Part shown: piece after piece, positions 148 through 16,652 of the stretch
Position numbering within the stretch: the stretch's first letter is position 1
How the letters are laid out: each line of letters opens with the position of its first letter
Virus record (IMG/VR): IMGVR_UViG_3300030101_001903
Location: 1 to 23,061 of that record
Origin: a virus
Length of the DNA stretch: 23,061 nt
Strand: one strand, 5' to 3'
Notes under the pieces: generated by a model
Told to the model about the DNA's origin: nothing
Database searches by the model: none
What the model saw: only the letters and a program-made list of their open reading frames with translations
Program-made: the position numbers and the translations under genes

Positions 148-894
148 ATGGAAAGAAGAAAATCTGGTAAGGGTTTTAAATTAAAAGGACATACCTTACC
201 TGGAGTGAATCAAAAAATAGAAGGTAAAAATCTACCAGATGGTAGACATCCTTCCTCTGCTTTTCAACAAAACACCGTGTCACCAATGAAGCAAGACAAT
301 GATTTAAGTGAGTATGATGCACAAGGAAACTTTATAGGAAATGTGCTACCAACGGCTAGTGATGAATTAAAAGATAATAGATATATAAAAAGTAAAGGTG
401 AATTTACATCAAGGCCTATGAGTAAAGGAGAGCAAAATCAAGCTAACTATGCAACAATGTTTACAAAAGGTAAAGGTGATAATCTTAGATATGGAGACAA
501 AATGATACCTGGAAGAACACAGTGGATTAGAGAGAATTATGGTAGAGGTTTGAGTAAGAAAGAACAAAGAAGAGCAGAAGCAGCTTTTTACAAGGCACAT
601 CCTCCTTCGTCGTTTAGAGTACCAACATCGTCAGGAGGTGAACAACTACAGCAGAACACACAACAACCAACAGAAACAACACGACCTCAGAGATACACAA
701 TTGAAGAAAAAGGAGATGATCCGTCAGAATTAACTAAAGCAGTATCTAAAGGGTACTTTAATCGAGGGCAAGGAAGTGAGTATTACCGAAACAGACCAGA
801 ACCATCTGACTTTGATAACGCAGATGATTATGTAAACGCTATCACTAAATATAAAAACGAATTTATTAAAAATAACCCTAACGCAAAATTATAA
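148..894 (+). CDS. Hypothetical phage protein with FKLK N-terminal motif and SPMKQD motif
   Basis: I do not recognise this 248-residue protein as an enzyme. It is hydrophilic, basic near the N-terminus and rich in Gln, Asn, Ser and Pro, with no membrane segment. Two short motifs tie it to other genes in the window: GFKLKG at residues 9-14, like the starts of the genes at 917, 5568 and 5946, and SPMKQD at 45-50, like TPLKQD in the gene at 5568. Residues about 155-185 (SSGGEQ to TRPQRY) look like a disordered Ser/Gln/Thr/Pro linker between two more ordered parts. The start is the first ATG after the leader, in the context TATTATG used by several genes here. From its position next to virion and chaperonin genes it may be a structural or capsid-internal protein, but that is inference only. 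Confidence 0.7.
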   Translation: MERRKSGKGFKLKGHTLPGVNQKIEGKNLPDGRHPSSAFQQNTVSPMKQDNDLSEYDAQGNFIGNVLPTASDELKDNRYIKSKGEFTSRPMSKGEQNQANYATMFTKGKGDNLRYGDKMIPGRTQWIRENYGRGLSKKEQRRAEAAFYKAHPPSSFRVPTSSGGEQLQQNTQQPTETTRPQRYTIEEKGDDPSELTKAVSKGYFNRGQGSEYYRNRPEPSDFDNADDYVNAITKYKNEFIKNNPNAKL

Positions 895-2202: not shown

Positions 2203-3768
2203 ATGGAATATAACCAACCTAGCGAAATTGTCAAGGATTTAAACTTTGACAATGACGCCACATCAAGAATTATAGCTGGTGTAAGTAAACTAGCTAAAGC
2301 CGTAAAATCCACACTGGGCGCAAGCGGTAAGTGCGTAATATACGAAGATGGACGCGGCAAACCGGTAATCACAAAAGACGGAGTAACAGTTGCAGAATCT
2401 GTTGTCTTGTTTGATCCGGTTGAAAATATGGGAGCTACACTTATTAAAGAAGCAGCAAGAAATACTGTCAAGGAAGCTGGTGATGGTACAACTACCGCTA
2501 CAGTTCTTGCTGAAGCTCTTATAAATAATATTAATCATGAACAAAACCATAACGTTTCTACTAGAGAAATTAAAGAAGGGGTGTTATCTGGTCTAGAAAA
2601 AGTAAATGATTATCTTGATAGCGTTAAAATAGAGGTAAAAGATGACATGTTAGACAACGTTGCCGCTATTAGCTGTAACAACGATAAAGAATTAGGTGCT
2701 ATTATTGCCGACGCTTATAAAAAAGTCGGAGGTGATGGCGTTGTTTTAATGGAAACTTCAGAAACAGAAGATACTTATGTAGAAATTGTTGATGGCGTTC
2801 AAGTAGACTGTGGTTTAACTTCACCACATTTTATAACAGATAAAGAAAAACAAAGATCTGTATTAGAAAACCCATTAGTTTTAGTCGTGGCGTCTGAAAT
2901 ACCTAATATTAGAAAGATACAAAACATACTAGAATACGTTATTAAGAACAATAGATCGCTTTTAATAGTAGCACAAGTGTCACAACAGGTAAAATCGGCG
3001 CTTTTAATGAACAAAGTAAAAGGAAATATTAAGGTAAATATTATAGACTTACCAGGCTTTGGTCCTACTAAACAAGACACCATAAAAGATCTAGCAATTT
3101 TAACTAATGCCATTGTTATAAATGAAGAGCTAGGTGATGATTTAGATGGAATATCTTTAGATGTATTAGGAGAAGCTGAAAAAGCTGTTACAGATGACAA
3201 AAACACGGTTATTACAACACTTGAAAATACCGAAGATGTTACTAAAAGAATTGAAGAGGTTAAAAAACTTGAGAAAAAAGAAAAAAACAACTTCATCAAA
3301 AAGAAAATATCCCAAAGAATAGCCATGTTATCTGGTACTGTAGGCATAATCAGGGTTGGTGCTAACTCAAAAGTAGAATTAAAAGAGAAAAAAGATAGAG
3401 TAGAAGACGCGATATATGCAACTAAAGCTGCTTTGAAAGAAGGTATTGTTCCAGGAGGTGGCATTGCGTTACTAAATGCATCGGAAAGAATACAGTACGC
3501 AAGTGTAGGAGAAGCTATATTATTAAACGCTATTAAATCTCCTTACCAAACTATATTAAACAACGCTGGTATAGAGCAAACTAAAGAGCTAGCAGGAGGT
3601 AACGGTATAAATGTTGTAACTGGCGAGGAAGTTAATATGGTGCAGTCAGGAATAATAGATCCTGTACTTGTTACTAAGACAGCACTTAAAAATGCTATTT
3701 CTGTGGTGACTACTATTATATCAGCTAATTGTGTAATTTCAAATATGCGTATAGATGAAAGCAGTTAA
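2203..3768 (+). CDS. groEL: Phage-encoded GroEL-type chaperonin (Hsp60)
   Basis: This is a full-length group I chaperonin subunit of 521 residues, which folds proteins in an ATP-driven double-ring cage in the cytoplasm. The nucleotide site is intact: ITKDGVTVAE at 56-65, GDGTTTATVLAEAL at 93-106 (D94 equals E. coli D87) and EDAIYATKAA at 401-410 (D402 equals the hydrolysis Asp D398), followed by GIVPGGG at 414-420. E. coli D52 is replaced by Glu (E48), as in mitochondrial Hsp60. By hand alignment the apical substrate/GroES groove has changed: Y199 and Y203 become L205 and H209 (CGLTSPHF), and L234 becomes Q240. The protein ends at RIDESS and lacks the flexible Gly-Gly-Met tail. The 3' end overlaps groES by 14 bases, implying coupled translation. 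The two together presumably fold a virion protein such as the capsid protein, portal or tail hub. Confidence 0.97.
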   Translation: MEYNQPSEIVKDLNFDNDATSRIIAGVSKLAKAVKSTLGASGKCVIYEDGRGKPVITKDGVTVAESVVLFDPVENMGATLIKEAARNTVKEAGDGTTTATVLAEALINNINHEQNHNVSTREIKEGVLSGLEKVNDYLDSVKIEVKDDMLDNVAAISCNNDKELGAIIADAYKKVGGDGVVLMETSETEDTYVEIVDGVQVDCGLTSPHFITDKEKQRSVLENPLVLVVASEIPNIRKIQNILEYVIKNNRSLLIVAQVSQQVKSALLMNKVKGNIKVNIIDLPGFGPTKQDTIKDLAILTNAIVINEELGDDLDGISLDVLGEAEKAVTDDKNTVITTLENTEDVTKRIEEVKKLEKKEKNNFIKKKISQRIAMLSGTVGIIRVGANSKVELKEKKDRVEDAIYATKAALKEGIVPGGGIALLNASERIQYASVGEAILLNAIKSPYQTILNNAGIEQTKELAGGNGINVVTGEEVNMVQSGIIDPVLVTKTALKNAISVVTTIISANCVISNMRIDESS

Positions 3769-4012
3769 TAACTACATAATAATAGATCAAATAAAAGAAG
3801 AGCCTAAAAAAGTAGCTGGTTTAATTCTAACAGAAAATGTAGATGATGACAATAGGTACTTAAAAGCAAAAGTCGTATCTATTGGTGGTAACGTTGAGGG
3901 AATAAAAGAAAACGATGTCATATATTACGATAAACACGCTGGACACGGAATCCAGCATAAAGATAAATTTTATGGCGTTATAAAACAAATGGACGTGGTC
4001 TTAATAGATTAA
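3755..4012 (+). CDS. groES: Phage GroES-type co-chaperonin, roof hairpin deleted
   Basis: This 85-residue protein is the lid for the adjacent GroEL; host GroES is about 97 residues. A first strand (NNYIIIDQI) is followed by a mobile-loop equivalent, KKVAGLILTE, matching E. coli KSAGGIVLTG with the hydrophobic tripeptide IVL replaced by LIL. The barrel then continues with LKAKVVSIG, IKENDVIYYD and a final MDVVLID strand. Between VVSIG and IKEND there are only about 5 residues where E. coli GroES has about 14, so the roof beta-hairpin is essentially missing, as in T4 gp31. In T4 the roofless lid gives a larger folding chamber for the capsid protein; a similar role here is inference. The ATG lies inside the end of groEL. 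Confidence 0.93.
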   Translation: MKAVNNYIIIDQIKEEPKKVAGLILTENVDDDNRYLKAKVVSIGGNVEGIKENDVIYYDKHAGHGIQHKDKFYGVIKQMDVVLID

Positions 4013-4013
4013 T

Positions 4014-4409
4014 ATGGAAAAGTATTTATATTTTAGAACAGAAGCTACAGATGCTGATGACGACGCTACAGGTGATTCAGCTTTATTTCCAGCATCTTCA
4101 CTAATGGGTATGCAACCTACTAGTGATACCGCTTTAACTTTATACTTTAAACCTATGGTACGTAGAGATCCAACTGGTTCGACTGATAGTGCTAATAGCT
4201 TAGACAATCACGACTCAGTTGTAGTTACAATACCAGCTAACACTCACATAATAGCTATGAGAGCTATATCAGAGATTATAAATAAAACAGAGTCATCTGC
4301 GTTTGTAGTTATAGCAAATGATGACTCAGGTGGTACAGAATATTTATCGGGTTCAGGTATTACAGCTTGTGACACAATAACAGTTGCAGCTGCTTACGCT
4401 AACTCGTAA
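4014..4409 (+). CDS. Small acidic protein, paralogue 1 of 3, putative virion decoration protein
   Basis: This 131-residue acidic protein starts one base after the groES stop. It begins MEKYLYFRTEA, then has FPASSLMGM, a strand-like TALTLYFKP, a long Asp/Ser-rich linker (about residues 50-68), VVVTIPANTHIIAMRAISEII and VVIANDDSGGTEYL, ending in an Ala-rich tail. The next two genes share this order: (E)K(F/Y)L near the start, (F/Y)P.S...GM, a strand, AM..I.E.I, and an Asp-rich turn followed by T.Y.S..IT. I recall similar small proteins as common near structural genes of marine phages, without a proven role. A repeated surface protein of the head is a reasonable guess. There is no enzyme motif or signal peptide. 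Confidence 0.75.
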   Translation: MEKYLYFRTEATDADDDATGDSALFPASSLMGMQPTSDTALTLYFKPMVRRDPTGSTDSANSLDNHDSVVVTIPANTHIIAMRAISEIINKTESSAFVVIANDDSGGTEYLSGSGITACDTITVAAAYANS

Positions 4410-4488: not shown

Positions 4489-4809
4489 ATGAACAAAAGT
4501 GATGAAGTTTATTGTTTTGCTCAAGTGGCAGATAATAACTCTGCTGGTTTTCCTTTATCTAGATTAAGATCTATAAACGGAGGAACAGGAGAGCTTATTC
4601 TAGCTATTGATGAGCCATCAGGAAACGTTGATGCTATTACGCTAACAACTGGTGCAGATGAACTTACTGCAGCAATGCAATTATGTAGAGCTTTAAGTGA
4701 AGCTACTAGAAACACACAATCAAACGTTGTGGTTTTAGCTAACTCAGCAGCGGCAACAGCAACAGTAACAGTTGTAAAAGAAATTACTGGTTGCAGTACT
4801 ATAGCCTAA
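4489..4809 (+). CDS. Small protein, paralogue 2 of 3, putative virion decoration protein
   Basis: This 106-residue protein keeps the plan of its neighbours: a strand-like start (VYCFAQVADN), GFPLSRLRSI in place of FPASSLMGM, ELILAIDEP, an ITLTTGADE strand, the helix AAMQLCRALSEA, and a final VVVLANSAAATATV strand ending in EITGCSTIA. It is the most diverged copy and lacks the Asp-rich turn before the last strand. The Ala/Thr-rich C-terminus is similar in style to paralogue 1. It has its own A-rich leader, so it may be expressed at a different level. Function is unknown; a minor head or surface protein is inferred from context. Confidence 0.7.
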   Translation: MNKSDEVYCFAQVADNNSAGFPLSRLRSINGGTGELILAIDEPSGNVDAITLTTGADELTAAMQLCRALSEATRNTQSNVVVLANSAAATATVTVVKEITGCSTIA

Positions 4810-4835: not shown

Positions 4836-5120
4836 ATGATAGAGAAATTTTTAGTCATGCAAACTGCTGCTAACGATGTTATGGTATATCCTGTATCTAA
4901 AATGAAAGGTATGGAAGGTAAAGATGGTACCGTTGACATTAGTTTTGATACAGTTGGAGCTGATGACATACTAACGATTAACACAAGCGATGAGTTTCAA
5001 GCAATGAAAGATATTGCTGAAGCTATAGGTGGTAACAAAGATGGTGCTATATTGCTTGGTGATGATGTAGCTGGTACTTATATTAGTACTAGTATCACAT
5101 CTATCGGTGATTCAGCATAA
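4836..5120 (+). CDS. Small acidic protein, paralogue 3 of 3, putative virion decoration protein
   Basis: This 94-residue protein is the shortest copy and looks closest to the family core. It reads IEKFLVMQTAAND, VYPVSKMKGME, GTVDISFDTV, ILTINTSDEFQAMKDIAEAIGG and AILLGDDVAGTYISTSIT. Relative to paralogue 1 it lacks the internal linker and the Ala-rich tail. The three genes lie head to tail within 1.1 kb, so local duplication followed by divergence is likely. No enzymatic motif is present. Confidence 0.72.
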   Translation: MIEKFLVMQTAANDVMVYPVSKMKGMEGKDGTVDISFDTVGADDILTINTSDEFQAMKDIAEAIGGNKDGAILLGDDVAGTYISTSITSIGDSA

Positions 5121-5567: not shown

Positions 5568-5936
5568 ATGGCGTTTAAATTAAAAAACGAAGGTGTTAAG
5601 AAAATAATAGGTGAACTAAGAAAAGCTAGTAAGCTACACGCTGGTCAAGCTGATAAGTTACAGAAAATGATTACACCATTAAAACAAGATAGAACACCAG
5701 GGTCACAAAACCCTAATTTTCCAGACGTAGTGTATACTAAAGATGGTAAGGCAATTAAAAGTGTTAATATCGATGAAGGAAGGTTAGATTTTCTACCAAG
5801 TATAGGACCAAAAGGCAGGTTTGTTAATTATACTGAAAACGGTAAAAAAACAAAGTACTATTACAAAAATCCTAAAAAAGCACCAGACCAAGCTAAATTT
5901 AGTGATTTAGAAAAAGAAGACGACGATAGAAATTAA
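5568..5936 (+). CDS. Hypothetical protein with FKLK N-terminal motif and TPLKQD motif
   Basis: This 122-residue basic, soluble protein has no family I recognise. It begins MAFKLKNEGVKKI, the tag shared with the genes at 148, 917 and 5946, and a helix-like Lys/Leu-rich stretch follows to residue 35. TPLKQD at 36-41 matches SPMKQD of the gene at 148. NPNFPD at 48-53 echoes PDFPD of the Lys/Met-rich protein. The C-terminal half is strand-like and charged (SIGPKGRFVNY, KKTKYYYKNPKK) and ends in an acidic tail (EKEDDDRN). It starts one base after the winged-helix gene. A capsid-associated role is possible but unproven. Confidence 0.65.
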   Translation: MAFKLKNEGVKKIIGELRKASKLHAGQADKLQKMITPLKQDRTPGSQNPNFPDVVYTKDGKAIKSVNIDEGRLDFLPSIGPKGRFVNYTENGKKTKYYYKNPKKAPDQAKFSDLEKEDDDRN

Positions 5937-5945
5937 AATACGATT

Positions 5946-6434
5946 ATGGGATTTAAAATGAAAGGACCTAGCCTATACAGAGATAAATCAGCGTTTAAAG
6001 CTAACAAAAAAAAAGTTAGTCCAAACTTTGATAAAAACTTTACTTCGTTATCACGGTCGAAAAGCCCTGTTTTTAGAAAAAGTTTAGACGAAGGTGTTTT
6101 AGGTGAAGCAAATAATGATGGCAGTATATTCGTAGATAAGAGTGTTCCAAAAGGAAGTCCTTTAGAAGCTGAAGTCGTAGCTCATGAGCAAAAACATATA
6201 GACGATATGAATACTAAAATCAAAGTACCTGGCAAAAAAAATAAAGTTAAAATGCTAGATTATGGAGATAACTTTGTTATTTATAAAGGCAAAAGGTTAA
6301 AAAGAAAAGATGGTATGATAGAGCACCCTAGTAATGGTAAGATGAAACCAGAAGGTGACAAAAGTTTTCCATGGGAGCAAGCAGCATATAAAGAAGGTAA
6401 CAAAGCAAGAAAACAAGCAGAAAAAAAGATATGA
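5946..6434 (+). CDS. Putative zinc metallopeptidase-like protein (HExxH) with FKMK N-terminus
   Basis: This 162-residue basic protein starts MGFKMKGPSLYRD, the tag shared in this phage. A helix-like segment EAEVVAHEQKHIDDM has the HExxH zinc signature (H80, E81, H84). Further on, FPWEQAAY at 141-148 offers E144 as a possible third ligand, as in gluzincin-type peptidases, although the spacing of about 60 residues is my inference. Between them is a strand-like region (DYGDNFVIYKGKRLKR). There is no signal peptide. The stop overlaps the holin start by 4 bases (ATGA), so the two are translationally coupled. It could act in lysis, in virion maturation or as an injected protein. It could also be a non-catalytic relative. 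Confidence 0.65.
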   Translation: MGFKMKGPSLYRDKSAFKANKKKVSPNFDKNFTSLSRSKSPVFRKSLDEGVLGEANNDGSIFVDKSVPKGSPLEAEVVAHEQKHIDDMNTKIKVPGKKNKVKMLDYGDNFVIYKGKRLKRKDGMIEHPSNGKMKPEGDKSFPWEQAAYKEGNKARKQAEKKI

Positions 6435-6823
6435 GTATATTAGGAAAAATATTTTCAGGTGGAGCTACTGAATTAATAAAAGGTGTAGGTGGTGTTATAG
6501 ATAACTTACATACATCTAAAGAAGAAAAGCTTGAAGCAGAAAAACAAATAAAAGATATGATAATGGGTTACGAAGCTGAAATGCAAAAGCAAGTAACTGA
6601 CAGGTGGAAAGTTGATATGGCCTCTGATTCCTGGTTATCAAAAAATATAAGACCACTAGTTTTAATATTTTTAGTAGTATCAACAGTGTTATTGGTTTTT
6701 ATCGATGCTGGTGTTATTGCTTTTGAGGTTAAAGCTTCGTGGGTAGACTTATTACAATTAGTATTAATAACAGTGATTGGTGCTTATTTTGGCGGTAGAT
6801 CACTAGAAAAAGTAAAAAAATAA
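6431..6823 (+). CDS. Holin, GTA '3TM' holin-like family
   Basis: This 130-residue protein resembles the holin family used for gene-transfer-agent release. It has an amphipathic Gly-rich N-terminus (LGKIFSGGATELIKGVGGVI), a charged coiled segment (about 29-60), the signature-like DSWLSKNIRPLVLIF, and two clear hydrophobic segments at about 74-92 and 104-121 separated by a short turn. The N-terminal Gly-rich helix would be the third, weaker membrane segment. The C-terminus is basic (SLEKVKK), as expected for a cytoplasmic end. It would permeabilise the inner membrane at the end of infection. It is coupled to the HExxH gene upstream. No amidase, muramidase or other recognisable endolysin is present in the window. 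Confidence 0.8.
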   Translation: MSILGKIFSGGATELIKGVGGVIDNLHTSKEEKLEAEKQIKDMIMGYEAEMQKQVTDRWKVDMASDSWLSKNIRPLVLIFLVVSTVLLVFIDAGVIAFEVKASWVDLLQLVLITVIGAYFGGRSLEKVKK

Positions 6824-6826
6824 ATT

Positions 6827-7198
6827 ATGGCATTTAAAGATCCAACAGATTACGCATTTGGTCAATTAGGTAGTATACACGTAAGAGGTACGAACGCGGT
6901 GACATTAATTGGCGGAGATGATACTAACGCTACACCGGCTGGTAATACTAACCGTATAACAAAAGTTTTTGTAGCGATAACATTTTTAGAAGACACAACT
7001 TTTAACACTGGCGCTACAGGTTTAGTACCAGCAGATTCACAAAACTTTCCTAGTTCAGACGGAGCTAGTACAGATATAGATGCTGACGGCGGTGTCGCAG
7101 TAGACGGCGAAACGTTTCCAAAAGGTGTTACTATATACGGCAGATGGACAGGCTTTCAATTAGCTACTGGAGGCGTAATAGCTTACGTAGGCATATAA
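6827..7198 (+). CDS. Putative virion decoration/structural protein
   Basis: This 123-residue, beta-rich, Gly/Thr/Asp-rich protein starts MAFKDPTDYAFGQLGS, has a strand VFVAITFLEDTTFN, and ends FPKGVTIYGRWTGFQ and VIAYVGI. I recall this arrangement (FKDPTDYAFGQ at the start, FPKGVTIYGRW near the end) as common among small structural-region proteins of marine phages, but I know of no established function. It lacks the Lys of the FK(M/L)K tag and is not counted in that set. The next gene begins within its stop codon (TAATG). It is probably displayed on the virion together with the LamG protein; that is inference. Confidence 0.65.
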   Translation: MAFKDPTDYAFGQLGSIHVRGTNAVTLIGGDDTNATPAGNTNRITKVFVAITFLEDTTFNTGATGLVPADSQNFPSSDGASTDIDADGGVAVDGETFPKGVTIYGRWTGFQLATGGVIAYVGI

Positions 7199-8010
7199 TG
7201 TTAGGATTAGGTAATAGCTTAACTTCTGTATCTTCTTTAGGCGAAGACTTTGGTACAAATCACTCTTTGTCTTTTGATGGTAGTAATGACGAAGTAGATT
7301 TTACTACTGCTAATTTTCAAGAAAAATTATCTGCCAGTGAAGGTAACTTCAAAGTCTCTGGTTCTGTATCAGTATGGGCGAGATTAAATACAACAGGTGC
7401 TAATGGACAGCTTTGGGATTTTTATATAGATGATGATAACAGAATAAATATTCAATACAAACACAATGTTACTCACAAGTACGTATTAACGTGGAGAGGA
7501 GGTGGCGCTCAAAAGACGGCTGATAGTGCTACAGGTTTAACTCACGAAGGTGATGGTAATTTTCACCATATAGTTTGTACTTGGGACAAGGGTAGCGCTA
7601 ATGAAATGAAAGTTTATATAGACGCAGAGTTAGCAGATACAGTAAGTTTAGGAACGGTAGAAATAGCAGGAGACTTTGATGATACCGCTGATGGTACGCT
7701 TGGTCAAAGTGGCGCGGGGGGAGTAGAGTTTTTGTCTGGTACTTCTTTTAATGGTAATGCTGATTTTAACGGTTTTTTAGACGACTTTGCTGTATATTCA
7801 ACTGTTTTATCATCTAGTGAAGTTACAACTCTTTACAATAGCGGCACGTCAGATCAAACAAACGTAGATACGGTTGGTACTATTATAGCACACTGGACTT
7901 TTAACGAAGGAACAGGTACCACTGTAACAGACAGAATAAATGGTTTTGTAGGTACATTTGGTTCAGGAAGTAACGCACCTAGGTTTAGCACTACAAACGC
8001 TGGAGCATAA
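7198..8010 (+). CDS. LamG / concanavalin A-like lectin domain protein
   Basis: Starting at the ATG that overlaps the previous stop (TAATG), this is a 270-residue protein; an upstream in-frame ATG at 7144 lies inside the previous gene and is less likely. It shows the LamG jelly-roll pattern: HSLSFDGSNDEVDF at 22-35, SVSVWARLN, a GDGNFHHIVCTWD core with KVYIDAELA, and the closing FNGFLDDFAVYSTVLSSSEV with TTLYNSG. A trailing IIAHWTFNEGTGT looks like the beginning of a second such unit or a capping strand. Such domains bind sugars. In a phage structural region the likely job is glycan binding on the virion surface, either host attachment or adhesion. There is no signal peptide. Confidence 0.82.
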   Translation: MLGLGNSLTSVSSLGEDFGTNHSLSFDGSNDEVDFTTANFQEKLSASEGNFKVSGSVSVWARLNTTGANGQLWDFYIDDDNRINIQYKHNVTHKYVLTWRGGGAQKTADSATGLTHEGDGNFHHIVCTWDKGSANEMKVYIDAELADTVSLGTVEIAGDFDDTADGTLGQSGAGGVEFLSGTSFNGNADFNGFLDDFAVYSTVLSSSEVTTLYNSGTSDQTNVDTVGTIIAHWTFNEGTGTTVTDRINGFVGTFGSGSNAPRFSTTNAGA

Positions 8011-8295: not shown

Positions 8296-8500
8296 AAAAA
8301 TTACTGTAGGTAAAGACTACAAAGAAAACGCTATGCACTATGCTGTAGGTCAAGACGTTTATGGTGGTCATACTATATGTAACATATTAGAAGAGCAAGA
8401 CAAATATTCTATTTACATAAAGAAAAATAAAGACGTACTACCTTGGAAAGACTTTAATAAAAACATGGCAGTGTCTGTAGAATATAATTTAGAGTATTAA
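8282..8500 (+). CDS. Small conserved hypothetical phage protein
   Basis: This 72-residue protein reads as mostly beta: MKIIRKITVGKDYKENAMHY, AVGQDVYGGHTICNIL, KYSIYIKK, then VLPWKDFNKNMAVSVEYNLEY. No enzyme motif or signal peptide is visible. It overlaps the coiled-coil gene by 14 bases at the start and its stop shares one base with the next ATG (TAATG), so all three small genes are translationally chained. Function unknown. Confidence 0.62.
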   Translation: MKIIRKITVGKDYKENAMHYAVGQDVYGGHTICNILEEQDKYSIYIKKNKDVLPWKDFNKNMAVSVEYNLEY

Positions 8501-9090
8501 TGAAAGCGCCTTTTGACTTTGTTATAGAGCCAAAAGGAAACAGATATAACAACGTTACTAAAGTTGGTGATAAAGATCTTATAATAAACACAGAAATATA
8601 TAATCACCAGTTTGTTAACAGGGAAGCTATTGTTAAGTCTGTGCCTACAGCTTTTGAAACAGAAATAAAACCTAACGACACTATTATAGTTCATCACAAT
8701 GTTTTTAGACGTTGGCATGATATGAAAGGTAGAGAAAGAAATAGTAGAAGTTTTTTTAACGAAAATACATACCTAGTAAAGCAAGATCAAATATTTTTAT
8801 ATAAAAGATATTGGGAGTGGAAAGCTGTAAAAGGATATTGCTTTGTAAAACCAATTAAACAAAGAAACAAGCTAAAGCCAGGAGAAGAAGAAAAGTGTAT
8901 AGGTATAGTTGAGTACACTGACGGTACAAATAAAGTTGGTGAGCTTGTAGGTTTTACACCTTTTTCAACTTACGAGTTTATTATAGACGGTAAACGTTTA
9001 TACAGAGTTATGAATAAATTTATTACAATTAAATATGAATATCAAGGAAACGAAGAAGCTTATAATCCAAGCTGGGCACAGAGCGGTTGA
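8500..9090 (+). CDS. Putative double GroES-like beta-barrel protein
   Basis: This 196-residue protein reads to me as two GroES-type barrels in a row. In the first, FDFVIEP is strand 1, DKDLIIN sits where the GroES mobile loop would be, NREAIVKSVP matches the TRGEVLAVG strand, IKPNDTIIVHHN matches VKVGDIVIFND, and NTYLVKQDQIFLYK (89-102) matches the closing strands EEVLIMSESDILAIV. In the second, KGYCFVKPIK starts at 111, CIGIVEYTD at 133, then KVGELVGFTPF and KRLYRVMNKFITIKY. This is by eye, not from a profile search. The last 18 residues beyond the barrel are encoded in the overlap with the next gene. It could be a modified co-chaperonin for the phage GroEL, or a virion protein that reuses the fold. 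Confidence 0.6.
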   Translation: MKAPFDFVIEPKGNRYNNVTKVGDKDLIINTEIYNHQFVNREAIVKSVPTAFETEIKPNDTIIVHHNVFRRWHDMKGRERNSRSFFNENTYLVKQDQIFLYKRYWEWKAVKGYCFVKPIKQRNKLKPGEEEKCIGIVEYTDGTNKVGELVGFTPFSTYEFIIDGKRLYRVMNKFITIKYEYQGNEEAYNPSWAQSG

Positions 9091-9310
9091 AGAATTAATT
9101 AATGTTGCTAGAGAAAAAATTATAACTAACACTGAAGACGACGTTAGTGCTGATAGACTTAAAAACGCCGCCGCTACTAAAAAGCTAGCCATATTCGATG
9201 CTTTTGAAATTTTAAATCGTATACAAGAAGAAGAAAATTTATTAAACAATAAAACCGTAGAAAAACAAGAAGTTAGTTTTAAAGGTTTTGCAGAAGGTAG
9301 ATCTAAATAA
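9035..9310 (+). CDS. Putative terminase small subunit-like protein
   Basis: This 91-residue protein is almost all helical: NIKETKKLIIQAGHRAVEEL, then ADRLKNAAATKKLAIFDAFE with ILNRIQEEEN, and a polar tail ending GFAEGRSK. The position directly before TerL, sharing a TAATG stop/start, and the small helical build fit a DNA-recognising small terminase subunit, but no helix-turn-helix is clear, so the call rests on context. The only ATG gives a 56-base overlap with the upstream gene, long for this window. An alternative is a small TerL-linked assembly factor. Confidence 0.5.
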   Translation: MNIKETKKLIIQAGHRAVEELINVAREKIITNTEDDVSADRLKNAAATKKLAIFDAFEILNRIQEEENLLNNKTVEKQEVSFKGFAEGRSK

Positions 9311-11520
9311 TGTACGAGCAGGATTTAGTTAAGGTTATAGAACCTATAAAGAAAACAACAATCACACGTTTAAATCGTGGTAAAAAATGGAAATATGGAT
9401 ATGATAAAGAACATGATATTATCGTTATATCAAAAACTGGTAAAATTGGCGAAATACTTGAAATCCAAAACTTGCGCATTGCTTTACCACTTGTGCCCGT
9501 GCAAGTATATAGACTGCCAAAAAATAAGTGGGAAAAAATAAAACAACCTTTAGAGCTTTCTAAATTAAAAAGTATTTTTGATTGGAGAAGCTACCCTGAA
9601 GAACTTAAGCCAAAGTGGTACGATTACATAGACGAAGAGTTTAAACGTAGAGAAGAGGGTTTTTGGTTTTTAAACAATAACAAACCAACTTACATAACGG
9701 GCGCTCACTATATGTATTTACAATGGAGTAAAATAGATGTAGGTGCGCCAAACTTTAGAGAAGCTAATAGATTATTTTATATATTCTGGGAAGCTTGTAA
9801 AGCTGATAATAGATGTTATGGTATATGTTACCTTAAAAATCGTAGATCTGGCTTTAGTTTTATGTCGTCAGCTGAAACAGTTAATTTGGCAACACTTGCA
9901 AGTGATAGTAGGTATGGTATATTATCTAAAACTGGTAATGATGCAAAAAAAATGTTTACAGACAAAGTTGTTCCAATATCAGTCAACTATCCTTTCTTTT
10001 TTAAACCAATACAAGACGGTATGGATAGACCTAAGTCTGAGCTTGCTTACCGTGTGCCTGCGAGTAAGTTTACACGTAAAAAAATTACTGCAAACGAAAA
10101 GCAGGAAAACTTGGTTGGACTTGATACTACTATTGATTGGAAAAACACAGGTGACAATAGTTATGATGGAGAAAAACTTAACTTATTAGTACACGATGAA
10201 AGTGGTAAATGGGAAAGACCTGATAATATATTAAACAACTGGAGAGTTACAAAAACTTGTTTAAGGTTAGGTGCTAGAATAGTTGGTAAGTGCATGATGG
10301 GCTCAACATCAAACGCTTTAGAAAAAGGAGGTAATAATTTTAAAAAATTATACAATGCGTCAGATGTTACTAAACGAAATCGTAATGGACAAACAAAGTC
10401 TGGTTTATATTCTCTTTTTATCCCAATGGAGTGGAACTACGAAGGCTTTATTGATGAATACGGATATCCAGTTTTCGATAGTCCAGATCATGATGTGCTC
10501 GGACCAGACGGTGAATTAATAGATTACGGAATAATAGAACACTGGCAAAACGAAGCTGAAGGTTTAAAAGATGACCAAGATGCTTTAAATGAGTTTTACA
10601 GACAGTTTCCAAGAACTGAAGAACATGCATTTAGAGATGAAACAAGAAACAGTATATTTAATTTAGTAAGAATATACGATCAAATAGATTATAACGAAGG
10701 TACAAAGCCTGGTATTAGCAAAGGTAATTTTCAATGGGTTAACGGAATAAAAGACACGCAAGTAATATTTTACCCAGATACTAACGGTAGATTTAATATT
10801 AGCTGGACACCACCATTACATTTGCAAAACAAAATAATAACTAAAAACGGTATTAAATATCCTGGTAACGAGCACATGGGTGCTTTTGGTTGTGATAGTT
10901 ACGATATATCAGGAACAGTAGATGGTAGAGGTTCTAATGGTGCTTTGCACGGTTTGACTAAGTTTAGCATGGAAGACGCGCCACCTAATCAATTTTTTTT
11001 AGAGTATGTAGCTAGACCACAAACAGCAGAGATATTTTTTGAAGACGTTTTAATGTCGTTAGTATTTTACGGCATGCCAATATTAGCAGAGAATAACAAG
11101 CCTAGATTATTATACTATTTAAGACGTAGAGGCTATAGAGGATATAGTATGAACAGGCCAGATAAAATTTGGAACAAATTATCTACGACAGAAAAAGAAA
11201 TAGGTGGTATACCAAACTCTAGCGAAGATATAAAACAAGCTCACGCAGCCGCTATTGAAATGTATATACAACAACACGTAGGAGATACTGGTGGAGGTAA
11301 TTGGGGTAACATGTATTTTAATAGAACTTTAAATGACTGGGCTAAATTTGATATAAACAAAAGAACAAAGTTTGACGCTAGTATCAGTAGTGGTTTAGCT
11401 ATCATGGCTTGCAATAGAAATTTATATGCACCTAATGCTAAAATTGAAAAGAAAAAATTAAGTTTAAATTTTGGAAGATACAGTAACAACGGAGCTTCGT
11501 CTAAATTAATTAAAAATTAA
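9310..11520 (+). CDS. terL: Terminase large subunit
   Basis: This 736-residue protein is the motor and nuclease that packages phage DNA. The ATPase half has a deviant Walker A, LKNRRSGFSF at 175-184, in which the usual GKS/T is replaced by GFS as in other crAss-like and marine terminases (family knowledge). Walker B is LNLLVHDES at 290-298, with catalytic E297. A coupling segment follows: GSTSNALEKGG at 331-341 and FYRQFPRTEEHAFRDE at 429-444, typical of large terminases. The RNase H-like nuclease begins GAFGCDSYD, with D529 and D532 as metal ligands. The N-terminal 110 residues are an extension with strand-like sequence (YDKEHDIIVISKTG). It starts in the stop of the TerS-like gene, and the portal gene follows after one base. 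Confidence 0.94.
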   Translation: MYEQDLVKVIEPIKKTTITRLNRGKKWKYGYDKEHDIIVISKTGKIGEILEIQNLRIALPLVPVQVYRLPKNKWEKIKQPLELSKLKSIFDWRSYPEELKPKWYDYIDEEFKRREEGFWFLNNNKPTYITGAHYMYLQWSKIDVGAPNFREANRLFYIFWEACKADNRCYGICYLKNRRSGFSFMSSAETVNLATLASDSRYGILSKTGNDAKKMFTDKVVPISVNYPFFFKPIQDGMDRPKSELAYRVPASKFTRKKITANEKQENLVGLDTTIDWKNTGDNSYDGEKLNLLVHDESGKWERPDNILNNWRVTKTCLRLGARIVGKCMMGSTSNALEKGGNNFKKLYNASDVTKRNRNGQTKSGLYSLFIPMEWNYEGFIDEYGYPVFDSPDHDVLGPDGELIDYGIIEHWQNEAEGLKDDQDALNEFYRQFPRTEEHAFRDETRNSIFNLVRIYDQIDYNEGTKPGISKGNFQWVNGIKDTQVIFYPDTNGRFNISWTPPLHLQNKIITKNGIKYPGNEHMGAFGCDSYDISGTVDGRGSNGALHGLTKFSMEDAPPNQFFLEYVARPQTAEIFFEDVLMSLVFYGMPILAENNKPRLLYYLRRRGYRGYSMNRPDKIWNKLSTTEKEIGGIPNSSEDIKQAHAAAIEMYIQQHVGDTGGGNWGNMYFNRTLNDWAKFDINKRTKFDASISSGLAIMACNRNLYAPNAKIEKKKLSLNFGRYSNNGASSKLIKN

Positions 11521-11521
11521 A

Positions 11522-13942
11522 ATGATAAGAACAAGTGTAACAAATAATTTTCCTAGTCAAGTAGTAAGTGACGTTGAAAAGTCTAGCATTGAATATGGTA
11601 TGAAAGTTGCTAAAGCTATAGAGCACGAGTGGTTTAATACAGACTATGCTATGAGTAGGTATTTAACTAATATGAACAACTTTCATAGACTAAGACTTTA
11701 CGCTAGAGGAGAACAATCAATACAAAAATACAAAGATGAATTATCTATAAATGGTGATTTGTCTTATTTAAATTTAGACTGGAGACCAGTGCCTATAATA
11801 CCAAAGTTTGTTGATATTGTAGTTAATGGTATAGCTGATAGGGTTTATGATGTAAAGGCTTTTTCACAAGATCCTTTTGGTGTAGACAAACGAACTAAAT
11901 ACATGCAGTCTATATTAAACGACATGAGAGCTAAGGAAGTTAATGATTTTGCACAAGATAAGTTTGGTATGTCTTTGAGAGAAAGTGGTGTTGAAGAACT
12001 TCCTGGTTCTGAAGAAGAATTAGCTTTACACATGCAGCTTACTTATAAGCAAGCTGTAGAACTAGCAGAAGAACAAGCTATAAACGTTTTATTAGAAGGT
12101 AACAACTTTGATTTAATTAAAAGAAGATTTTATTACGATTTAACAGTTTGTGGTATAGGTGCTGTTAAAACAAATTTCAATGAATCTGAAGGAGTTAAAA
12201 TAGAATATGTTGATCCAGCTAACTTAGTTTATTCTTATAGTGACTCACCATATTTTGAAGACTTGTATTACATAGGTGAAGTTAAATACATATCTATAAA
12301 CGAACTTATAAAAGAGTTTCCACAGCTAACTATGGAAGAGTTAAAAGAATTAACTGAAAAAAGTTATTCTGTTAATAGAGGTAATTATAATAAACCATAT
12401 TCTACTAGAGAACAAAAAGATAAAAACAAAGTACAAATACTTTATTTTAATTATAAAACTTTTAATACAGAAGTTTATAAAATAAAAAACACTAATACTG
12501 GTGGTTTAAGAGCTATAGAGAAAGACGATACGTTCACGGCTGAAAGTACAGAATATTTTACTGTTGAGTCTAGAAAAATAGAAGTACTTTACGAAGGAGC
12601 TATAATACTAGGTAGTGATAGACTTTTAAAATGGAACATGTGTAAAAACATGATGAGACCTAAAAGTGATCATACTAAAGTAAAGATGAATTACGCTATG
12701 TGTGCGCCTAGGATGTATAACGGTAAAATTGAAAGTTTAGTTAGTAGAATAACTGGCTTTGCTGATATGATACAACTAACTCATTTAAAGCTACAGCAGG
12801 TAATGTCGCGTATAGTTCCAGACGGTATTTATTTAGACGCTGATGGTTTAGCTGAAATAGATTTAGGTAATGGTACTAACTATAATCCACAAGAAGCCTT
12901 AAATATGTTTTTCCAAACTGGGTCTGTGATAGGTAGAAGTTTTACTTCTGACGGTGATATGAATCCTGGTAAAGTACCTATACAAGAAATACAGTCTGGT
13001 AACGGTGGTGCTAAAATGCAAAGCTTAATTGGCACGTATAATTATTACCTACAAATGATTAGAGATACAACAGGATTAAACGAAGCTAGAGATGCTAGTG
13101 TTCCAGATCCAAAAGCTTTAGTAGGTGTACAAAAAATGGCAGCAGCAAATAGCAACACAGCTACAAGGCACATATTGCAAGGAGGTTTATTTTTAACAGC
13201 AGAAGTTTGTGGTAATTTGTCTATGAGAGTATCAGATATATTAGAGTACTCACCTACAAGAGACGCTTTTATACAAAAAATAGGTAGACATAACGTTGGT
13301 ACTTTAGACGATGTTAAAGATCTTCATTTATATGACTTTGGTATATTCTTAGAACTTTCACCAGATGAAGAAGAAAAAGCTATGTTAGAAAATAATATAC
13401 AAATAGCTTTGTCACAACAAACTATAGATTTAGAGGACGCTATAGATCTTAGAAATATTAAAAGTTTAAAACTAGCTAATCAACTTTTAAAAGTTAGAAG
13501 AAAAAAGAAAATGCAAAATGACCAGATGCGAGCACAGCAAAACATGCAAGCTCAGGCTCAAGCTAACGCGCAGCAACAGGCCGCAGCTGCTCAAGCAGAA
13601 GTACAAAAGCAACAAGCATTAACTCAAACAAACATGCAATTAGAACAAGCTAAATCTAATTTAAAAATAGAGTCTATGATGCACGAGGCTGAAATTAAAA
13701 AGCAGTTAATGGATCATGAGTTTAGTATCAATATGAGATTAAGGCAAGTAGAAGTTGAAGCTATTAAAGGTAGAGAAAAAGAAAAAGAAGATCGTAAAGA
13801 TAAAAGAACTAAAATACAAGCGTCACAACAAAGTGAGCTTATAGATCAAAGAAAAAATGAAAAACCACCTAAAAACTTTGAATCATCAGGTAATGATATA
13901 TTAGGAGGTGGTATGGGTTTAGAAGCATTTAATCCTAGATAA
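11522..13942 (+). CDS. Portal protein, crAss-like type
   Basis: This 806-residue protein would form the ring at the capsid vertex through which DNA passes. Its place directly after TerL, its length and its layout support the call. An N-terminal domain contains DWRPVPIIPKFVDIVVNGIADRV-type sequence (residues about 80-100), a central part has YDLTVCGIGAVKTNF and VEYVDPANLVYSY, and a helical clip/crown region contains RDTTGLNEARDASVPDPKAL near 515. Residues about 660-785 form a long Gln/Ala- then Lys/Glu-rich coiled coil (MRAQQNMQAQAQANAQQQ and beyond), a feature I associate with crAss-like portals. The C-terminus NDILGGGMGLEAFNPR appears to be a conserved tail. A clear ATG follows the TerL stop by one base. 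Confidence 0.9.
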   Translation: MIRTSVTNNFPSQVVSDVEKSSIEYGMKVAKAIEHEWFNTDYAMSRYLTNMNNFHRLRLYARGEQSIQKYKDELSINGDLSYLNLDWRPVPIIPKFVDIVVNGIADRVYDVKAFSQDPFGVDKRTKYMQSILNDMRAKEVNDFAQDKFGMSLRESGVEELPGSEEELALHMQLTYKQAVELAEEQAINVLLEGNNFDLIKRRFYYDLTVCGIGAVKTNFNESEGVKIEYVDPANLVYSYSDSPYFEDLYYIGEVKYISINELIKEFPQLTMEELKELTEKSYSVNRGNYNKPYSTREQKDKNKVQILYFNYKTFNTEVYKIKNTNTGGLRAIEKDDTFTAESTEYFTVESRKIEVLYEGAIILGSDRLLKWNMCKNMMRPKSDHTKVKMNYAMCAPRMYNGKIESLVSRITGFADMIQLTHLKLQQVMSRIVPDGIYLDADGLAEIDLGNGTNYNPQEALNMFFQTGSVIGRSFTSDGDMNPGKVPIQEIQSGNGGAKMQSLIGTYNYYLQMIRDTTGLNEARDASVPDPKALVGVQKMAAANSNTATRHILQGGLFLTAEVCGNLSMRVSDILEYSPTRDAFIQKIGRHNVGTLDDVKDLHLYDFGIFLELSPDEEEKAMLENNIQIALSQQTIDLEDAIDLRNIKSLKLANQLLKVRRKKKMQNDQMRAQQNMQAQAQANAQQQAAAAQAEVQKQQALTQTNMQLEQAKSNLKIESMMHEAEIKKQLMDHEFSINMRLRQVEVEAIKGREKEKEDRKDKRTKIQASQQSELIDQRKNEKPPKNFESSGNDILGGGMGLEAFNPR

Positions 13943-15188: not shown

Positions 15189-16652
15189 ATGGCAATTACT
15201 GCAGGAGATAATTTGAATAGTGTACCAGCACCAAAGAAAGCTACACTATCTGCAAATTATATCGATTTTACGGCATCTGGCACGGCTGGATGGGCGCAAC
15301 AATACCTGCCTGACTTAATGGAAAAAGAAGCTGAGGTTTTTGGAAACAGAACTATCTCAGGATTTTTATCTCAAGTTGGAGCAGAAGAGTCTATGACTTC
15401 TGACCAAGTTATTTGGTCTGAGCAAGGTAGATTACATTTATCATACACGGGTACTGTTAATACTGAGACCTCTGTATTTACTGTTTTATTAGACATCGAT
15501 GGTGACAATGGTGTTACTTCTGGTAACCACGGTATAAGATTAAACGACCAAGTAGTTATAGCGACTGCTGAAGGAGCTATCAAGTGTTTTGTAACAGCTA
15601 TTTCAACTGACGCTGTTACTTGTAAGCCTTACGAGTTTGAAAATATTGACGATAGTCCAGTATTCACTGCGGGAAGCTCTATAGCTGCAACTCTACTAGT
15701 TTATGGTTCTGAGTATGCTAAAGGAACTGATGGTCAAGGTGGCCACGCTTCTGGAGCTAAAAATGTAGAGCCTGTATTTAAGTCTTTTACTAATAAGCCA
15801 ATTATTATGAAAGATTACTATGAAATTTCTGGATCTGATGCATCTGCAATAGGTTGGGTTGAAATTTCTGGTGAAGACGGGCAATCAGGTTACTTATGGT
15901 ACTTAAAAGCTGAAGGTGATACTAGACAAAGATTTACAGACTACTTAGAAATGACTATGATGGAAGCTGTAAAAGGTGTTTCTGGTAACTCTACTATAGA
16001 TGGTACTGATGGTATAGGAACTGAGTTTGGTACTCAAGGTTTATTTGATGCTATTGAAGACAGAGGTAACGTAACTACTGGTGTAACTGGTGTTAACGCT
16101 GCTACTGACTTAGCTGAGTTCGATGCTATTTTAGCGGAGTTTGACAATCAAGGAGCTATTGAAGAAAACATGTTATTCATAAACAGAGCTACTTCACTTG
16201 CTTTTGACGATATGTTAGCTTCAATGAACTCTTACGGAGCTGGAGGTACTTCTTACGGAGTATTCGACAACGAAGAAGATATGGCGTTAAACTTAGGTTT
16301 CTCAGGATTTAGAAGAGGTTCTTATGACTTCTACAAGTCTGACTTTAAATACTTAAATGACAAAGCTACTAGAGGAAGTATAAACAGTAGAAATACTACT
16401 TCACCTGTTAGAGGTGTCATCATACCAGCTGGTGTATCGTCTGTGTATGACCAAACTTTAGGTAAAAACTTAAAGAGACCATTTTTACATGTTAGATTTA
16501 GAGCTTCACAAACTGATGACCGAAGAATGAAGACTTGGGTTACTGGTTCTGTTGGTGCTGTTACATCTGACTTAGATGCAATGCAAGTTCACTACTTATC
16601 AGAAAGATGTTTAGTTACTCAAGGTGCTAACAACTTTATGATGATGAAGTAA
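15189..16652 (+). CDS. Major capsid protein, HK97 fold, crAss-like type
   Basis: This 487-residue protein is the shell subunit by position after the scaffold, length (crAss-like capsid proteins are about 490) and sequence style. The N-arm has GWAQQYLPDLMEKEAEVFGN (residues about 34-53), followed by TISGFLSQVGAEESM. A beta-rich inserted domain spans about 85-180 (TVFTVLLDIDGDNG-like region to VYGSEYA). The backbone returns with PIIMKDYYEISGSDA, a spine-helix region RQRFTDYLEMTMMEAV near 245-260, and the C-terminal RPFLHVRFRASQTDDRRMKTW and LSERCLVTQG. The leader has an AAATTAAAAATT run ending AATTATG. A strong terminator lies 8 bases past the stop, as expected for a very highly expressed gene. 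It is the most plausible client of the phage chaperonin. Confidence 0.9.
   Translation: MAITAGDNLNSVPAPKKATLSANYIDFTASGTAGWAQQYLPDLMEKEAEVFGNRTISGFLSQVGAEESMTSDQVIWSEQGRLHLSYTGTVNTETSVFTVLLDIDGDNGVTSGNHGIRLNDQVVIATAEGAIKCFVTAISTDAVTCKPYEFENIDDSPVFTAGSSIAATLLVYGSEYAKGTDGQGGHASGAKNVEPVFKSFTNKPIIMKDYYEISGSDASAIGWVEISGEDGQSGYLWYLKAEGDTRQRFTDYLEMTMMEAVKGVSGNSTIDGTDGIGTEFGTQGLFDAIEDRGNVTTGVTGVNAATDLAEFDAILAEFDNQGAIEENMLFINRATSLAFDDMLASMNSYGAGGTSYGVFDNEEDMALNLGFSGFRRGSYDFYKSDFKYLNDKATRGSINSRNTTSPVRGVIIPAGVSSVYDQTLGKNLKRPFLHVRFRASQTDDRRMKTWVTGSVGAVTSDLDAMQVHYLSERCLVTQGANNFMMMK

Follow-up and report, generated by a model that had tools for sequence, protein, structure and literature searches.

A divergent phage GroEL with an altered client groove and cognate co-chaperonin genes in an apparent phage head module

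Some phages bring their own chaperonin, and the locus described here bears on the question of why they do so: is such a GroEL a recently captured host protein, an ordinary folding machine that has drifted, or a machine dedicated to phage proteins? The locus lies in a stretch of 23,061 nucleotides (the window), which comprises bases 1-23061 of a 38,859-bp IMG/VR virus record (IMGVR_UViG_3300030101_001903) and as a whole gave no match to phage records by megablast. The original prediction had read the open reading frame at 2203..3768 as a complete GroEL with a rewired apical pocket, and had proposed selection for a narrow client, or for exclusive pairing with the phage GroES, rather than capture of the host gene. 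Here, we follow up these proposals by comparing the protein and its gene neighbourhood with those of phage relatives and bacterial hosts.

The chaperonin gene and its surroundings

A complete GroEL is indeed encoded at 2203..3768 (plus strand). The intact open reading frame of 521 aa matches Cpn60_TCP1 over residues 30-514 (Pfam PF00118, E 2.1e-52) and the phage GroEL family phrog_5725 (PHROGs, E 4e-132), and its structural model (pLDDT 84.5) aligns with GroEL structures over 508 residues (Z about 41, rmsd 4.2), as expected of a GroEL-type three-domain Cpn60 fold. The protein was aligned by MAFFT with GroEL of E. coli (MG1655), with 80 close relatives found in IMG/VR phages, with 80 GroELs of named Bacteroidota, and with GroELs of named phages; the window protein and its 80 relatives, which are 71-100% identical to it, are referred to as the clade (81 sequences). 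The equivalents of the E. coli nucleotide-site residues, namely D59 (D52), D94 within GDGTTT (D87), D402 (D398), G418-G420 (GGG 414-416) and D486 (D495), are invariant in all 81. The earlier assignments of D94 and D402 are thereby upheld, but not that of E48 to the D52 position, which is taken by D59 in an intact ITKDGVTV motif and is D in 81/81. The absence of a Gly-Gly-Met tail, also noted before, extends to the entire clade (tail in 0/81, versus 79/80 hosts). With a dN/dS of 0.11-0.15 to close relatives, the gene is intact and has long been passed on vertically under purifying selection.

From its PHROGs matches, the window reads as the head module of a tailed phage, on the plus strand. Beyond groEL and groES (3755..4012) lie, all in this orientation, the genes for a holin (6431..6823; phrog_3427, E 8.8e-32), a probable tandem GroES (8500..9090), the terminase large subunit (9310..11520; phrog_6681, E 1.8e-168), the portal protein (11522..13942; phrog_6547, E 3e-156) and a virion structural protein (15189..16652; phrog_13704, head and packaging, E 2.9e-96), the last being a candidate major capsid protein and a possible client of the GroEL. 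The order groEL-groES-tandem GroES-terminase-portal recurs across related loci, and a terminase is present in 55 of the 59 related loci that have at least 7.5 kb downstream. The host may be a flavobacterium, since isolated relatives infect Flavobacterium, Maribacter and Cellulophaga. Phage GroELs had been called uncommon, which fails for this group, as at least 589 IMG/VR stretches encode relatives of the window GroEL. Starting from the portal, GroEL was matched in five of 20 loci, most records being too short; the five include all four loci that hold 10 kb upstream of the portal. Virioplankton chaperonins have reportedly been surveyed by Marine et al. in 2017.

Other products of the window have features of their own. 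Inside the head module, 7144-8010 encodes a protein with a Concanavalin A-like (Laminin_G_3) domain, possibly a glycan-binding part of the virion. A 311-aa protein without family match (917-1852) has an extremely high content of Lys, Met and Ala and contains KMK/MAKMKK in irregular repeats, and three small proteins encoded in a row directly after groES (4014-4409, 4489-4809 and 4836-5120) resemble, by eye, diverged copies of each other. An N-terminal tag, FK[ML]K[GNS] (typically MAFKMKG), recurs on several otherwise unrelated proteins of the window (148-894, 917-1852, 5568-5936 and 5946-6434) and of related loci; the 96 tagged open reading frames counted over both are all on the plus strand, and the motif, possibly a virion-targeting or propeptide signal, is about 40 times commoner within the first 30 residues than beyond them.

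The client groove

Three substitutions had been read by hand in the apical pocket, and the MAFFT alignment with E. coli GroEL bears them out: Y199, Y203 and L234 are L205, H209 and Q240 in the window. The complete set of window groove residues (L205, H209, F210, Q240, L243, I247, K264, L268 and M269) corresponds to E. coli positions 199, 203, 204, 234, 237, 241, 259, 263 and 264. Over the 81 clade members, position 199 is L in 66, I in 13, and M and V in one each; position 203 is H in 75, N in five and Y in one; and position 234 is Q throughout. Changes that had been missed include L259, which is replaced in every member (K in 79, R in two), and A241 and V264, which have become I and M, respectively, in 81/81; V263 is L or M. 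L237 (81/81), F204 (F in 79 of 81) and N265 are kept. Judged from the alignment, L259K is the strongest groove change, and the clade, identical to E. coli at only F204 and L237 of the classic eight groove positions (Y199, Y203, F204, L234, L237, L259, V263 and V264), lacks the canonical hydrophobic client groove, a feature that is common among group I chaperonins without defining them.

The Bacteroidota hosts (n = 80, including Polaribacter, Maribacter, Winogradskyella and Tenacibaculum) have Y199, Y203 and L259 in 80/80 and L234 in 78/80, with M in the other two. The observation therefore stands: the substitutions are absent from these GroELs, marine Flavobacteriia among them. Being fixed or nearly fixed over 81 sequences and, apart from the M at L234 in two, not found in the hosts, the changes appear to exceed chance. 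Helix I, which had been thought one residue shorter, spans 261-272 in the model, and the gap of one residue is at D253, within the loop that precedes it; this gap is shared by the lineages of MW202828 and elemo (81/81 and 15/15).

Whether the groove has been a special target of change was examined against the 265 positions that are invariant in the hosts and identical in E. coli, 121 of which are altered in the clade. Helices H and I with the underlying segment have 12 of 20 conserved positions altered, compared with 43 of 79 in the remaining apical domain (Fisher p = 0.80); for the eight classic positions the figures are 6/8 versus 49/91 (p = 0.29); and in a BLOSUM severity test p was 0.11 relative to the apical pool and 0.047 relative to the whole-protein pool. 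The groove as a statistically privileged target is thus unsupported. Its chemistry has shifted all the same: the mean hydropathy of the eight groove residues is 0.64 in the clade versus 2.48 in hosts, and the net charge of helices H and I with the segment is +5.2 versus +0.1, whereas that of the apical domain barely moves (-5.9 in hosts, -5.0 in the clade). Within the clade, entropy is 0.30 at the eight positions versus 0.77 in the apical domain, and "altered, then held" seems a fair description of the groove. The word "rewired" is thus apt for a groove that has become less hydrophobic and more basic, but selection on it is unproven by the number of changes, because groove positions have been altered no more often than apical positions of similar conservation.

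Outside the groove, both partners of the R197-E386 contact are lost in 81/81 (replaced by C/S/V and K), and V464-N467 of the inter-ring contact region are deleted in 81/81, with R452 variable. In 55 of the 81, the D83-K327 pair (K90 and D332 in the window) has its charges exchanged (K/R with D/E). The contacts are assigned as in E. coli GroEL. Because part of the inter-ring contact region is lost, the sequences suggest that the double ring is weak or absent.

The co-chaperonins

The groES gene (3755..4012, plus strand; 85 aa; Cpn10, E 1.1e-9; phrog_3188) overlaps the end of groEL by 14 nt, and in 80 of 80 related loci (tblastn included) it likewise overlaps groEL directly downstream. This order is the reverse of groES-groEL in E. 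coli MG1655. The profile of the phage GroES matches that of host GroES (hhalign, 97%). The mobile loop of the window protein reads AGLILTENVDDDN; in the related loci G24 and L25 are invariant, hydrophobic residues are retained at positions 26 and 27, and the flank on the C side of the loop mostly has a charge of -3, compared with 0 in hosts. In E. coli, the loop tripeptide of GroES contacts GroEL L234, L237 and V264 (PMC3514286). The acidic flank could match the more basic groove, which would fit a re-keyed pairing. The proposals of a narrow client and of exclusive pairing are consistent with the data, but neither gains from the groove counts (p = 0.80 and p = 0.29) or from the apical severity test (p = 0.11).

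A second lid is probably encoded at 8500..9090 (plus strand). Its 196-aa product matches phrog_13932 ("co-chaperonin GroES", E 4.5e-15), and its model (pLDDT 70) has as best PDB match, over both domains, chain 7ekq_R of Chlamydomonas Cpn20 (Foldseek E 2.7e-5, Z 10.1, 158 residues, rmsd 3.9). Single Cpn10s are next, and T4 gp31 is also among the matches. Pfam, solved-structure profile and profile-profile searches gave no Cpn10 match, and the assignment as a tandem, Cpn20-like GroES is based on PHROGs and the predicted fold. The first domain carries LIL/LII in a low-confidence loop; the loop of the second is less clear. The gene is present in 61 of the 65 related loci with at least 6.5 kb downstream, and homologues occur in elemo, Panino, MW202828 and phi38:1-type phages (immediately preceding the terminase in the first two, and two genes ahead of it in MW202828); the first domain of the elemo homologue matches GroES phrog_3188 (E 3e-4). 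T4 gp31, the classic phage co-chaperonin, differs in having one domain and in working with the host GroEL. Plastid Cpn20 is the best structural match, but the tandem-domain Cpn20 has been described as chloroplast-specific (PMC5780408); confirmation of the double-length lid would place a Cpn20-type subunit outside plastids.

Lids of this kind also occur in a related phage without a detectable GroEL. Cellulophaga phage phi19:3 (Pachyviridae) encodes, in a similar place, a 200-aa protein (L356, 5085-5687), the C-terminal half of which matches Cpn10 (E 1.6e-7), and in addition an annotated single-domain GroES (L358, 32116-32370), and a search of its complete genome detected no GroEL. Its lids presumably work with the host GroEL. 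Since phi19:3 keeps both co-chaperonin genes without detectable GroEL, not every relative couples its lids to a phage GroEL, and strictly exclusive GroEL-GroES pairing is disfavoured as a rule.

Explanations and known systems

The reading that we hold to be the more probable one, with some reservation, is that of a divergent group I chaperonin that belongs to the phage, comes with one or more lids of its own and most likely serves virion production; it is kept by a widespread lineage of marine phages, the cultured relatives of which infect Flavobacteriaceae. The best supported description from the sequences is that of a group I chaperonin that would be ATP-driven, lid-using and dedicated to phage morphogenesis, with less hydrophobic capture and an electrostatically retuned groove. 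The client groove has shed much of its usual greasiness and acquired a positive charge, which argues for an old, dedicated phage folding machine instead of a recent capture. In such a machine, the remaining hydrophobic strip (L243/I247/M269) would still dock the L-I-L of the phage GroES mobile loop, aided by charge between the basic groove and helices and the acidic loop flank. General capture of unfolded protein would be weakened, and folding would favour a single phage protein or a handful, most likely from the head, under capping by the phage GroES and perhaps also by the tandem GroES encoded near the terminase. The window lineage has groEL in its late/structural region; that the client is purely structural is nevertheless insecure, because the elemo GroEL is encoded on the strand opposite to the structural genes and that of phi38:1 sits amid replication genes. 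An elaboration that we consider unlikely as a whole is a three-part chaperonin in which a basic-groove GroEL serves one or a few virion proteins, single-domain GroES and the tandem Cpn20-like subunit form a hetero-oligomeric lid, and this lid takes over the host GroEL in relatives without GroEL.

Other explanations start from the same data. An ordinary, fairly promiscuous GroEL-GroES machine may have drifted everywhere, with mutually compensated groove changes that have no special meaning for clients. The groove changes are indeed proportionate to those in the rest of the apical domain, nearly half of the host-invariant positions are altered overall, and different groove residues have been lost in other phage lineages. 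Yet the new residues are frozen in the clade, with L234Q and L259K/R in every member, hydropathy drops sharply and the groove gains charge while the whole apical domain does not, and mutations at these hydrophobic sites impair substrate binding by E. coli GroEL (PMC3268035). We regard general divergence as possible, if doubtful. A degenerate groove, in a protein that no longer folds clients by encapsulation and has another role, for example as a scaffold or as a decoy for host GroES, would also suit the reduced hydrophobicity, the missing salt-bridge partners and the missing inter-ring contact residues; this is improbable, given that purifying selection maintains the motifs of the ATP site, L237 and N265, together with a cognate GroES whose mobile loop is conserved.

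A recently captured host GroEL that shares its groove with marine Flavobacteriia deserves next to no credence. The closest solved sequence to the window GroEL is an ancestral Fibrobacteres-Chlorobi-Bacteroidetes chaperonin, so that an old Bacteroidota origin is possible. However, the window GroEL is only about 40% identical to Bacteroidota GroELs, which keep the host groove residues, and the tree, in which deeper placement among the long-branched phage GroELs is unsafe, puts the window-clade GroELs in one clade (100/100, stem 0.77) and the hosts in a separate one (99/98). Recent host capture is thus ruled out, and the original rejection of a captured copy holds in that sense. In the clade, nature provides a series of group I chaperonins whose textbook client groove was altered and then held; cognate lids are encoded beside them, and one relative has lids but no detectable GroEL, so that client specialisation and lid specificity can be tested by residue swaps.

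Among known systems, the chaperonins of Pseudomonas phage EL and of OBP and AR9 are likewise phage-encoded, and the apical groove of EL is also remodelled; the EL chaperonin showed no interaction with GroES of E. coli, and a phage GroES was not known for it (PMC7185714). The window GroEL is not of this giant-phage type, being 24% identical to EL and having an adjacent cognate groES. The kind of system described here is already known, since GroEL was reported in 36 related environmental genomes of marine Bacteroidota phages (Nishimura et al., 2017; PMC5332604). These form, with phi38:1 and phi40:1, group 2 of the marine Flavobacteriaceae phages, which have GroEL and GroES and related portal, terminase and head genes. 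However, the GroEL of phi38:1 is 39% identical to that of the window and keeps Y199 and L259, and its groES lies upstream, separated by one gene. Elemovirus (Flavobacterium phages elemoA-F) and Maribacter phage Panino also have GroEL and, directly before the terminase, a GroES of 180-182 aa, and in elemo the small GroES adjoins GroEL; the elemo GroEL is 37% identical and keeps Y199 and L234. Position 203 is L/M in relatives of MW202828, G in elemo and R/S in phi38:1 and Calle_1. Closest among named phages by its portal (53%) is MW202828 (Podoviridae sp. ctfjg026), which shares with its IMG/VR relatives and the window the order groEL-groES, the tandem GroES homologue, the terminase and the portal. 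Its lineage likewise has a polar residue at L234 (E), I at A241 and the D253 gap, but differs in a GroEL only 38% identical, in which Y199 is kept, L259 is V/I in most members, and the groove charge is only +1.1.
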